Shown piece after piece: positions 8,530 through 11,866 of a stretch of 46,580 nucleotides of DNA (the stretch's first letter is position 1; each line of letters starts with the position of its first letter). This stretch comes from Spirochaetaceae bacterium (GTDB lineage Bacteria; Spirochaetota; Spirochaetia; DSM-27196; SLST01). The translations under genes were made by a program, and so were the position numbers. The notes beneath the pieces were generated by a model. That model saw only the letters and a list, made by a program, of their open reading frames with translations, was not told the origin of the DNA and made no database searches. The DNA lies in the NCBI GenBank assembly GCA_007118855.1, contig SKQU01000122.1, positions 1 through 46,580 on the forward strand, given 5' to 3'.

Positions 8530-8982
8530 TCAATCGCCGGATCGCGCCTGCGAACGCACCTCGTCAAGAAGCTGGTGGAGCGTATTCCACGAAAGGAGCG
8601 CACACTTGATGCGCACGGGGTACTTTGCGACGCCCTGGATAGCCTCCAGGTCCTCGGCGCCGTCGGGAAACTCCGGCGTCTCGTTCCGCGTGAGCATCCC
8701 CTTGACCCGCTCAACGAGCTCTTCGGCCTGGGTCACCTCCATGCCCTTGATCGCGTTGCATAGCATGTTGGCGCTCGCAATGCAGATCGAGCAGCCGACC
8801 CCTTCAAACGAAGCGTCGGTGATCTGCTCGCCGTCCGACTTGAGGTAGAGCTCAATGTCGTCGCCGCATGAGGGATTCACGCCCTCCTGCCTGAAGGCCG
8901 GTGACTCGAGCGCCCTGCGGTTCCTCGTGCTCTTGTAGTTGTCGAGAATGATCTCGCGATACAGATCGTCGCCGAGGTTCAT
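8530..8982 (-). CDS. sufU: Fe-S cluster assembly sulfurtransferase/scaffold SufU
   Basis: 150 residues of the IscU/SufU family, which takes sulfur from SufS through a zinc site and passes it to SufBCD. Conserved ligands are visible: NPSCGD (Cys39, Asp41), GVGCSICIAS (Cys64) and RIKCALLSW (Cys127). The insertion between the second and third cysteines fits SufU rather than IscU. The ATG overlaps the sufS stop as ATGA (8979-8982), so translation is probably coupled. sufB, sufC and sufD are not in the window. Confidence 0.95.
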   Translation of the reverse strand: MNLGDDLYREIILDNYKSTRNRRALESPAFRQEGVNPSCGDDIELYLKSDGEQITDASFEGVGCSICIASANMLCNAIKGMEVTQAEELVERVKGMLTRNETPEFPDGAEDLEAIQGVAKYPVRIKCALLSWNTLHQLLDEVRSQARSGD

Positions 8983-10223
8983 CCGAACACCTCCTGAACG
9001 CGCCCGAGGGCCGTGACGAGCCGATCCACATCCTCGCGCGTATTGTAGAGATAGAAGCTCGCCCGAACCGTACCGTGAATGCCCAGATGCCGCATGAACG
9101 GCTGAGCGCAGTGGAATCCGGTCCGCACTGCTATGCCTTCGCCATCGAGGACGCTGCCCACGTCGTGGGTATGCACCTGACCCAGGTTGAAGCTTATGAT
9201 ACCGCCGCAACGCCCCTCGCGGGGTCCGTACAGCGTGATCCCGTCCACCTCTGCGAGCCGCTCGAGCGCGTACTCGAGCAGGTGCTCCTCGTGCTCGGCA
9301 ATCGCTTCCATGCCGATTTCCTCGAGATACTCGATCGCGGCGCCGAGCGCGATCACGCCGGAGATATTCGGCGTCCCGGTCTCGAACCGGTCCGGGGCTT
9401 CCTTGTATTCGGCACGGTCGCGGTACACCCGCACGATCATGTCTCCACCGTAGAGGAGAGGGTCCATGTTGTTCAGAAGCGCACGACGACCGTAGAGCAC
9501 ACCGACGCCGGTTGGTCCGCACATCTTGTGTCCGCTCCACACGAGGAAATCGACGTCGAGCTCCTCGACGTTGACCGGGTGGTGACTGACCAGCTGCGCC
9601 CCGTCGACGATCACGATCGCGCCTCTCTTGTGGGCGAGCCGGGAGATCTGTGCCACCGGCGGCATGAATCCGGTCACGTTGGACATCCCGGTGATCGCGA
9701 CGATCCTCGTCCGCTCGGTCAGAGCCGCCTCAACCGACGCGGCGGTGATGATGCCGCCCGGCCCGAGCTCCACGAACCGGAGATGCGCTCCGGTCTGGCG
9801 CGCCACCTCCTGCCAGGGTATGAGGTTCGCGTGGTGCTCGACTTCGGTCGTCAGAATCTCGTCGCCAGGTTTCAGAAATTTGCGCCCCCAGGAGAAGGCA
9901 ACGATGTTCACCGCCTCGGTCGCGCTCTTGGTGAAGACGGCCTCCCCATCCGAAGGCGCACCGATGAACCGCTTCGCCTTCTCTCTCGCCTCGTCGTAGA
10001 GCACCGTCGCCTGCTCGCTGAGTTCATAGACACCGCGATGGATGTTGGCGCTGATATCGCGCAGGTAGGAGACCTCCGCGTCGATCACCGGCCGCGGTTT
10101 CAGCGATGTCGCGCCGTTGTCCAGATAGGCGAGCGGTTTTCCGCGCATCTTCCGAGTGAGGATCGGGAAGTCCGCGCGAACCCGCTCGAGATCGTATCTC
10201 GTGTGGGCCGATGTGGTGCTCAA
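8979..10223 (-). CDS. sufS: cysteine desulfurase SufS
   Basis: 414 residues, PLP-dependent group II cysteine desulfurase. The PLP lysine is in SGHKMCGP (Lys233), the pyridoxal-phosphate His in EVEHHAN, and the persulfide cysteine in RTGFHCAQP (Cys372). The start is a TTG at 10223 with GGAG 7 bases upstream; it overlaps the stop of the upstream rrf2 gene as TTGA (10220-10223). This start fits SufS N-termini, with YDLERVRADFPIL shortly after it. It forms an operon with rrf2 and sufU. Confidence 0.95.
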   Translation of the reverse strand: MSTTSAHTRYDLERVRADFPILTRKMRGKPLAYLDNGATSLKPRPVIDAEVSYLRDISANIHRGVYELSEQATVLYDEAREKAKRFIGAPSDGEAVFTKSATEAVNIVAFSWGRKFLKPGDEILTTEVEHHANLIPWQEVARQTGAHLRFVELGPGGIITAASVEAALTERTRIVAITGMSNVTGFMPPVAQISRLAHKRGAIVIVDGAQLVSHHPVNVEELDVDFLVWSGHKMCGPTGVGVLYGRRALLNNMDPLLYGGDMIVRVYRDRAEYKEAPDRFETGTPNISGVIALGAAIEYLEEIGMEAIAEHEEHLLEYALERLAEVDGITLYGPREGRCGGIISFNLGQVHTHDVGSVLDGEGIAVRTGFHCAQPFMRHLGIHGTVRASFYLYNTREDVDRLVTALGRVQEVFG

Positions 10224-10648
10224 CGGTGTGCTCCTTGAACTGGGTTCGACCTGAGGAGTGATCCGACCGTGGTATCGGCGAGCAGACCGACGATGCGCGC
10301 ACCGAGCGAGTGGACCGGTCCGGCAACCGTACACACGTCGCCGCGATCACAACTGCCTGTGCCCTCGACGTCGCACGCGGAGAGGCGCATCCGCCCCTCA
10401 ACCGCCTCCGAGAGCTCGAGAAAACTGAGCTCATCGGGATCGCGGACGAGCCGGTATCCTCCGCCGGCTCCCTGCTCGCTTTCCAGCACGCCGGCTGCCG
10501 CAAGACGCTGCAGGATCTTCGCGATCAGTCCGGACGGAAGCGCCAGGGTCTCGCACAGGTCCCGCGCGCTCACCAGGCGTTCCGGTTCGCGCGCCATGAA
10601 CTGCACGGCGATGAGCGCATACTCCACGCGCTTCGATATGCGTACCAT
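10220..10648 (-). CDS. Rrf2-family Fe-S regulator, IscR-like
   Basis: 142 residues. A winged-helix N-terminus with the Rrf2 pattern YALIAVQFMA and LALPSGLIAKILQRLAAAGVLES is followed by the wing GGYRLVR. Three cysteines (Cys92, Cys100, Cys106) sit where IscR binds its cluster, spaced CX7C-X5-C instead of CX5C-X5-C, with His in PVHSLG close behind. It heads the sufS-sufU operon and probably senses Fe-S status to control it. A 25-bp palindrome between its -10 box and start codon is the likely autoregulatory operator. Confidence 0.9.
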   Translation of the reverse strand: MVRISKRVEYALIAVQFMAREPERLVSARDLCETLALPSGLIAKILQRLAAAGVLESEQGAGGGYRLVRDPDELSFLELSEAVEGRMRLSACDVEGTGSCDRGDVCTVAGPVHSLGARIVGLLADTTVGSLLRSNPVQGAHR

Positions 10649-10673
10649 AAATCGGACTCCATTGGTCCTATTT
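10649..10673. promoter_or_regulatory. Rrf2/IscR-type operator
   Basis: On the minus strand AAATAGGAC-N7-GTCCGATTT, a 9-7-9 inverted repeat with 8 of 9 arm bases matching. It begins directly after the -10 box (10674-10679) and ends one base before the rrf2 ATG, so a bound regulator would cover the transcription start. Confidence 0.7.
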
Positions 10674-10702
10674 AACGTACCGGAACCACTCCCCGCTGTC
10701 AA
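10674..10702 (-). promoter_or_regulatory. promoter of the rrf2-sufS-sufU operon
   Basis: Minus strand: perfect TTGACA (10702-10697), 17-base spacer, TACGTT (10679-10674). The -35 lies 21 bases downstream of the sod stop codon. Confidence 0.65.
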
Positions 10703-10722: not shown

Positions 10723-11331
10723 TCAGCTCGCCGCGTCGTAGTTCTTCTGCACCTGCTGCCAGTTGATGAGATTGAAGAAGGCGCTGATGTACTCCGGACG
10801 CCGGTTCTGGTACTTGAGGTAGTACGCGTGCTCCCACACGTCGAGTCCGAGGACGGGAGTATCGCCGCTGGTAATCGGGCTGTCCTGGTTCGCGGTACTG
10901 CAGATCGCGAGTCTGCCGTCGTTTCGAACAACGAGCCACGCCCATCCGCTTCCAAACCGTCCGGCGGCCTCGTTTGCGAACTGCTCCTTGAACGAGTCGT
11001 GGCCCCCGAAGGCCGAATCGATCGCCTCCGCAAGGCTCCCCGACGGGACACCTCCGCCCGAAGGAGAAAGGATCTGCCAGAACAGCGAATGATTGGCGTG
11101 CCCTCCTCCATTGTTCCTCACGGCAGTGCGAATCGTCTCAGGAAGATCACTGAGCTTCGCGAGCAGTTCGTCAATGCTCCAGCCGGCGTACTCGCTGCCC
11201 TCGACCGCAGCGTTCAGCTTCGACGTATAGCCTGCATGGTGCTTGCCATGGTGCAGTCGCATCGTCTGCTCATCAATATGCGGCTCAAGCGCATCGTAAC
11301 CGTACGGCAAGTCAGGTGTCGGAAAAGCCAT
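10723..11331 (-). CDS. sod: Fe/Mn superoxide dismutase
   Basis: 202 residues of the iron/manganese family. The four metal ligands are His27 (LHHGKHH), His81 (HANHSLFW), Asp164 and His168 (LDVWEHAYY). It converts superoxide to hydrogen peroxide and oxygen. Metal preference cannot be decided by eye. The start ATG has a strong ribosome binding site (GAGGAGG, 5 bases). It is divergent from the superoxide reductase gene and just upstream of the rrf2-suf operon. Confidence 0.95.
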
Positions 11332-11470: not shown

Positions 11471-11866
11471 ATGGGAACTTTTGGTGAACTGCTGCAGAGC
11501 GCAGACTGGAAGAACGAGAAGCATGCGCCGGTGATCGAGGCGCCTGCGGGCGCAAAGGCCGACGAGCCGTTTGAGATTGCCGCTCTCGTCGGGAAGGAGA
11601 TTGCCCACCCGAACACGACCGAGCATCACATCGTCTGGATCGAGCTCCACTTCAAGCCGGACAGCGACAAATTCTCGCATCAGCTGTCCGTCAACCGGTT
11701 CACGGCTCACGGAGAGTCGGTGAAGGGGGCCAACGAAGGGGCCGCCTATACCGAGCCCGCGTGTCGCACGACGGTGAAGCTCAAGGAGTCGGGAACCATC
11801 TACGCAACGAGTTACTGCAACATCCACGGTCTCTGGGAGAGCGAGCAACGCATCGAGGTGAAATAG
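11471..11866 (+). CDS. sor: superoxide reductase, neelaredoxin (1Fe) type
   Basis: 131 residues, only the catalytic domain; the rubredoxin-like desulforedoxin domain of 2Fe-SOR is absent. Ligands of the Fe(His)4Cys centre are His18 (in EKHAP, with the conserved Glu-Lys), His46 and His52 (AHPNTTEHH), Cys116 and His119 (YCNIHG). It reduces superoxide to peroxide without releasing oxygen, taking electrons from rubredoxin or a similar donor. Start chosen for AGGAGG 4 bases upstream. The flavoenzyme at 12824-14011 could be part of the electron chain. Confidence 0.95.
   Translation: MGTFGELLQSADWKNEKHAPVIEAPAGAKADEPFEIAALVGKEIAHPNTTEHHIVWIELHFKPDSDKFSHQLSVNRFTAHGESVKGANEGAAYTEPACRTTVKLKESGTIYATSYCNIHGLWESEQRIEVK

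Follow-up and report, generated by a model that had tools for sequence, protein, structure and literature searches.

The rrf2-sufS-sufU operon and its promoter

The stretch of DNA analysed here (the window, 46.6 kb) is a single contig from a draft spirochaete genome of 3.9 Mb, designated G000 in our comparisons. The minus strand carries rrf2 (10220..10648), which encodes a 142-aa Rrf2-family regulator with cysteines at positions 92, 100 and 106 and a glutamate at position 9. The protein matches the Pfam model Rrf2 (PF02082) at 88.4 bits (cut-off 30) and TIGR00738 at 81.3 bits (cut-off 73.3). Downstream on the same strand are sufS (8979..10223; TIGR01979, 572.6 bits, cut-off 475.1), a cysteine desulfurase gene whose TTG start (10223) overlaps the rrf2 stop, and sufU (8530..8982; TIGR01994, 154.5 bits, cut-off 92.5), which encodes a sulfur transfer protein and overlaps sufS by ATGA. 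Upstream of rrf2 lies a gene for an Fe/Mn superoxide dismutase (SOD; 10723..11331, minus; Pfam Sod_Fe_N and Sod_Fe_C), which is given as context and is assigned no part in the switch proposed below. A SOD-like frame was also seen upstream, by eye, in the related genomes G006 and G007. Between 10723 and 14008, oxygen-defence genes adjoin the Fe-S operon: the SOD gene, a gene for a desulfoferrodoxin-domain protein (11471-11866, plus strand) and one for a pyridine nucleotide-disulphide oxidoreductase.

The promoter of the operon was read from the minus strand. A -35 box, TTGACA (10702-10697), stands 17 bp ahead of a -10 box, TACGTT (10679-10674), which occupies the same place in relatives. The -10 box directly abuts a 25-bp palindrome, AAATAGGAC-CAATGGA-GTCCGATTT (10673-10649), which ends at the ATG start codon of rrf2 (10648-10646) and is our predicted operator. 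Direct reading confirmed the 9-7-9 inverted repeat between -10 box and start codon that was described in the initial annotation. The same annotation counted one mismatch in each arm; a mismatch does exist, and it is a single mismatched pair in the whole palindrome, A10669 versus G10653. Beyond the arms, the outer pair T10674/A10648 is also matched. The range annotated earlier, 10649-10702, takes in everything from the -35 box to the last base of the palindrome, which itself measures 25 bp. The rrf2 promoter was missed by the promoter scan, since TACGTT agrees with TATAAT at 3/6 positions and the scan threshold was 4, and the palindrome was missed by the general repeat search of the window at the settings used. 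Judging from the position of the promoter, the transcription start of rrf2-sufS-sufU probably lies at the palindrome. The right half of the palindrome overlaps the letters GGAG (10660-10657), whose distance from rrf2 is that expected of a ribosome site.

Conservation of the palindrome and its association with rrf2

The shape of the palindrome by itself is weak evidence and only suggestive. It is not rare, because 18 palindromes of the 9-7-9 form with at least 8/9 pairs occur in the window, the operator included. Mononucleotide shuffles of the 103 nt ending at the rrf2 ATG gave P = 0.006 for G000. Taken one genome at a time, the palindrome was significant in G000, G003, G001 and G002 (P 0.014 or less) and not significant in G005 (P 0.13) and G006 (P 0.11), where 7/9 pairs match.

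For the family comparison, eight genomes including G000 were used, and rrf2 was detected at E <= 1e-15 in six of them. The site was found directly before rrf2 in all six rrf2-bearing genomes, which belong to two genera, and it is a perfect palindrome in G001 and G002, the two members of the other genus (g2). When the six promoters were aligned, invariant columns were observed at 15/18 positions of the arms, at 0/7 positions of the spacer and at 6/75 positions of the 75 bp upstream, the last six being in or beside the -35 and -10 boxes. By eye, TTGAC is present in 6/6 promoters, with a -35/-10 spacer of 17 in five and of 18 in one. In G002 the operator lies one base farther from the -10 box, and the operator and the ATG are two bases apart in both g2 genomes, indicating that the site is not merely the edge of the gene. 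A pattern search of the eight genomes placed every site with two mismatches or fewer at rrf2 (6/6), and the reversed-pattern control gave 0. At the level of sequence, conservation of the palindrome across relatives is strong.

Three further family sites carry 3 mismatches and are located away from rrf2. One is in G000 itself (G000:C395; L005:1501-1525). It differs from the window form by 2 mismatches and from the symmetric form by 3, and the gene whose start is close by resembles, by eye, one for a bifunctional nuclease; a pattern search found no counterpart in the other genomes of its genus (g1). The extra sites in G002 (L024 and L025, 3 mismatches each) are at genes that appear, by eye, to be unrelated. 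As operators, these copies were rejected and treated as chance, being confined to a single genome or placed at seemingly unrelated genes.

The genome G007, of the same genus as G000, has sufS and keeps the order SOD-sufS-sufU. A homology search of this genome gave no match to rrf2, none was found between SOD and sufS, and a pattern search of the genome gave no palindrome site. The interval from the SOD stop to the sufS ATG, roughly 55 bases, contains a TTGACC-N17-TAGCCT promoter followed by nine bases. We infer that this state reflects loss of rrf2 and the site rather than the original arrangement. G007 is a natural experiment in which the enzymes and promoter were kept and the regulator and operator are absent, and no second genome informs on such a joint absence. 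Searches of G004, which is 77% complete and so uninformative here, detected neither sufS nor rrf2.

A survey of the phylum covered 392 genomes of Spirochaetota, in which relatives of the window Rrf2 at E <= 1e-20 were detected at 12 places in 11 genomes, its own included. The palindrome with two mismatches or fewer occurred at 23 places in 20/392 genomes. With one mismatch or fewer there were four places (G000, G186, G094 and G051), each immediately before a relative of the window Rrf2. In family f9 (G186, G094 and G051; L050, L051 and L052), the site is one letter off and precedes rrf2-sufT-sufC-sufB; the frames next to rrf2 are sufT-, sufC- and sufB-like, and an ABC domain was found in the SufC of G186. 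The regulator in the f9 genomes is linked to the scaffold operon. Weaker sites were observed in G056 (14/18 letters), before rrf2 and then a sufB-like gene, and in G113 (13/18 letters), before rrf2 and then sufC- and sufB-like genes. At 6/12 Rrf2 matches (L030, L031 and L033-L036) no copy of the motif was found. Ahead of L030, another Rrf2 gene of G113, stands a 9-7-9 palindrome with one mismatch but other letters, some 46 to 22 bases from where the match begins; it is perhaps an operator of other specificity.

Phylum-wide, sites with two mismatches were not enriched over the reversed control, which by eye is matched in more than 20 genomes, so the remaining two-mismatch sites prove nothing. 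Gene neighbourhoods were inspected at 17/19 of the two-mismatch places (L038-L049, L053-L056 and L071), with the further hit in each of G389 and G333 left out. Palindromes of the same form were seen by eye before nifS-nifU-like (G418; L042:1501-1525), cydA-like (G116; L055:1501-1525) and iron-transporter-like (G080; L071:1775-1799) genes; these are suggestive by eye and as a set are not enriched over the control. Collectively, the family conservation, the joint absence in G007 and the distant rrf2-suf operons support the original proposal of an Rrf2-type operator at the start of rrf2-sufS-sufU.

Identity of the Rrf2 protein and its cysteines

From its sequence, the regulator is clearly a member of the Rrf2 superfamily. 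Its translation contains Cys92, Cys100 and Cys106 in the spacing CX7CX5C, as annotated, plus Cys32; the listed translation of rrf2 has one extra N-terminal residue compared to the numbering used here. The three cysteines, of the Fe-S type and located before the dimer helix, are kept in 5/5 rows of the Rrf2 alignment. The structure model has the Rrf2 fold, and a fold search with this model returned RsrR at ranks 1-10, with CymR, IscR and NsrR among 36 chains at E <= 0.001 and apo-NsrR at 0.0029. The pLDDT is <50 at residues 90-105, the Cys loop, and nothing was concluded from the model on the cluster.

The protein scores below the cut-off of every named equivalog model listed. The label IscR in the initial annotation did not hold: the TIGR02010 score is 42.9 bits versus a cut-off of 207.55, an alanine occupies the position of His107 (three residues past the third cysteine), and Ala43-Lys44, invariant in 5 alignment rows and aligned to the Glu-Gln of 4hf0, stand in place of Glu43-Gln44. 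The scores were also below the cut-offs for RirA (NF008886, 41.9 bits versus 193), NsrR (NF008240, 24.4 bits versus 182, with Glu9 for Asp8) and CymR (28.4 bits versus 195). The top-scoring equivalog, the SUF regulator TIGR02944 (Xanthomonas type), gave 81.9 bits, below its cut-off of 110.65. In a tree, the ten suf-linked proteins whose genes are preceded by the site, in full or in weaker form, cluster together with moderate support (84/89), and the IscR-like protein encoded elsewhere in the same genome falls outside this group. The tree took in Spirochaetota rows only, and comparison with RisR and its group IS6 was made by published description and motif.

The spacing CX7C had been proposed to alter the cluster or its stability. 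The first cysteine spacing is 7 in G000, G005 and G003, 5 in G006, G001 and G002, and CX4C or CX6C in far suf-linked relatives. The CX5C orthologues are 54-59% identical to the window Rrf2 and have the same operator. Since the spacing varies among close orthologues with no change of operator, the proposal is without support, and CX7C was rejected as the marker of a different cluster. The second spacing is X5 in all 17 rows having three cysteines. RirA has the spacing CX7CX5C (Cys91/99/105). At the position aligned, through L031, with Asp8 of NsrR, a glutamate is present in 10/10 suf-linked proteins, and a histidine three residues after the third cysteine is present in 0/10 suf-linked rows. Asp8 of NsrR is described as a cluster ligand from the partner subunit and His107 as a cluster ligand of IscR (PMC5411485), and the Asn8Asp change alone is reported to have stabilised the cluster of RirA (PMC10510648). 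This suggests that the fourth ligand position is a better candidate than the first cysteine spacing.

Predicted regulation of the suf genes

The closest known system is RisR of Myxococcus, rather than IscR of E. coli. RisR of Myxococcus xanthus (Rrf2 group IS6) has three cysteines, as does the window Rrf2, and controls Fe-S assembly operons; holo-RisR is described as repressing isc and suf via GAC-N7-GTC palindromes (PMC9973013). Its footprinted motif is given as T(t/g)GAC-N7-GTCC(t/a); at isc the footprint takes in the putative start site together with most of the -10 box (PMC9973013). In the window, too, the promoter of Fe-S assembly genes is overlain by a GAC-N7-GTC palindrome flanked by AT-rich sequence, here a binding site predicted from sequence. 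The second cysteine spacing is X5 in both proteins (Cys102 and Cys108 in RisR), whereas the first is CX9C in RisR (Cys92 and Cys102) and CX7C here. RisR also controls both isc and suf, whereas the rrf2 operon is the one place where the site was found here. IscR of E. coli and Pseudomonas shares the Rrf2 fold, three cysteines and a 25-bp GAC-N7-GTC site (PMC3899308), but the window Rrf2 is without His107 and Glu43-Gln44 and the operators match the type 1 consensus at only 13-15/25 positions. NsrR of Streptomyces coelicolor is described as a [4Fe-4S] Rrf2 repressor (PMC5411485) whose Asp8 aligns, through L031, with Glu9 of the window protein; the two differ in having Asp and Glu at this position, and the operon here is suf, not NO detoxification. 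RirA of Rhizobium shares Rrf2 membership and three cysteines and is reported to carry [4Fe-4S] (PMC5863699); in contrast to the window Rrf2, it has Asn8 (PMC10510648) and controls iron uptake.

The anatomy of the site, its conservation and its presence or absence together with rrf2 were observed directly, and comparison of the sequences makes it very likely that the Rrf2 protein encoded downstream regulates its own operon with the palindrome as operator. A cluster-loaded Rrf2 dimer would be predicted to bind two AAATAGGAC half-sites and to shield the DNA from the downstream edge of the -10 box, across the start site, to 15-20 bases into the transcribed region. The bound dimer would occlude RNA polymerase, and rrf2-sufS-sufU would be repressed. 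A shortage of Fe-S clusters, or damage to them, would cost the regulator its cluster and free the site, and cysteine desulfurase and sulfur acceptor would be made. Repression, rather than activation, is suggested by the position of the site, although activation is compatible with this position too. The presence of a cluster and the nature of the signal are suggested by the three cysteines, by Glu9 aligned with NsrR Asp8, by the operon content and by the RisR precedent. Promoter occlusion by the holo-dimer is the likeliest mechanism because the core, spacing, AT-rich flanks and place of the site match those of RisR sites.

A different regulator, for instance the IscR-like paralogue, might be the main protein at the palindrome, and the local Rrf2 might act at other sites. 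The genome does encode an IscR-like protein (G000:C282, L010) that has CX5CX5C and the His, and IscR type 1 sites are also described as having GAC-N7-GTC at their core (PMC3899308). However, G007 retains the IscR-like gene and has neither rrf2 nor the palindrome, and the 13-15/25 matches of the operators to the type 1 consensus compare with 18-19 in the sufT promoters of 6/7 genomes, which makes binding by another regulator unlikely. The overlap of the palindrome with the GGAG run would fit a leader RNA hairpin that masks the ribosome site with no DNA operator involved. This explanation was rejected as highly improbable: leader folding was no better than that of shuffles, with z 0.14 for the whole palindrome and z 1.21 from the likely start, the left arm is mostly at or before the likely start, and the mismatched pair remains unpaired in four g1 promoters. 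Least probable of all is a chance palindrome in an AT-rich promoter. The window contains 18 of equal grade, but the arms are conserved and the spacer and flanks are not, the perfect form is found in two genomes of another genus, and the site is absent together with rrf2 in G007.

The sufT-C-B-D genes are on a separate contig (G000:C19). It had been proposed that the palindrome be sought before sufBCD in particular; a pattern search and a 9-7-9 palindrome scan showed that it is absent before sufT-C-B-D in this genome. The initial annotation had named absence from other Fe-S genes as one half of a refuting result; the absence seen at sufT-C-B-D is not taken as refuting the operator, because the site tracks rrf2 and not sufBCD. 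The sufT-C-B-D promoter carries an IscR-type-1-like 25-mer over its -10 box (G000:C19:14213-14237; L008:6214-6238, minus), which agrees with the type 1 consensus of E. coli IscR at 18-19/25 positions in 6/7 family genomes and at 15 in G002. Shuffles gave P 0.002-0.015 in six genomes and 0.38 in G002. Across the 46.6-kb window the highest type 1 score is 18 and occurs once, and the two motifs before P. aeruginosa iscR are reported to have 68% and 76% identity to the type 1 consensus (PMC3899308). The 25-mer is present in G007 and G004, both without a detected rrf2. Its dyad symmetry ranges from 3 to 7 of 9 pairs, and overlap with the conserved -10 box could alone explain its conservation.

The IscR-like Rrf2 gene (L010:2984-3433, minus; G000:C282) is beside an efp-like gene, and its product has CX5CX5C plus His and the Glu-Gln recognition pair. 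The TIGR02010 score of this protein is 138.9 bits, below the cut-off of 207.55. The gene was found in 5/8 family genomes, all of which are drafts, and was not found in the draft genomes G003, G006 and G001. A third Rrf2 gene (L009:2205-2612, minus), beside a RecQ-type-helicase-like gene, encodes a protein without the three cysteines that is nearest to CymR among the named models. One possible arrangement, which we regard as doubtful and offer as a lead, is that in this spirochaete family SUF is split over two Rrf2 circuits, with sufS-sufU under the local RisR-like repressor (three cysteines plus Glu9 of the partner) and sufT-C-B-D under the IscR-like protein via the type-1-like -10 site. If this is true, sulfur supply and scaffold would be tuned by different cluster sensors.

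Together, the comparative evidence argues that the operator is real and of an ordinary kind, with predicted autoregulation of suf by a RisR-like Rrf2 protein in spirochaetes. Judged by title and abstract opening, no paper among those listed in a literature search deals with such a system in spirochaetes. If the cysteine comparison holds, the first cysteine spacing in Rrf2 regulators would say little about cluster type, and a better feature to test would be the residue at the fourth ligand position, which is His, Asp, Glu or Asn among the compared proteins. If the proposed operator function is correct, RisR-like autoregulated control of suf with a GAC-N7-GTC operator would extend to Spirochaetota.
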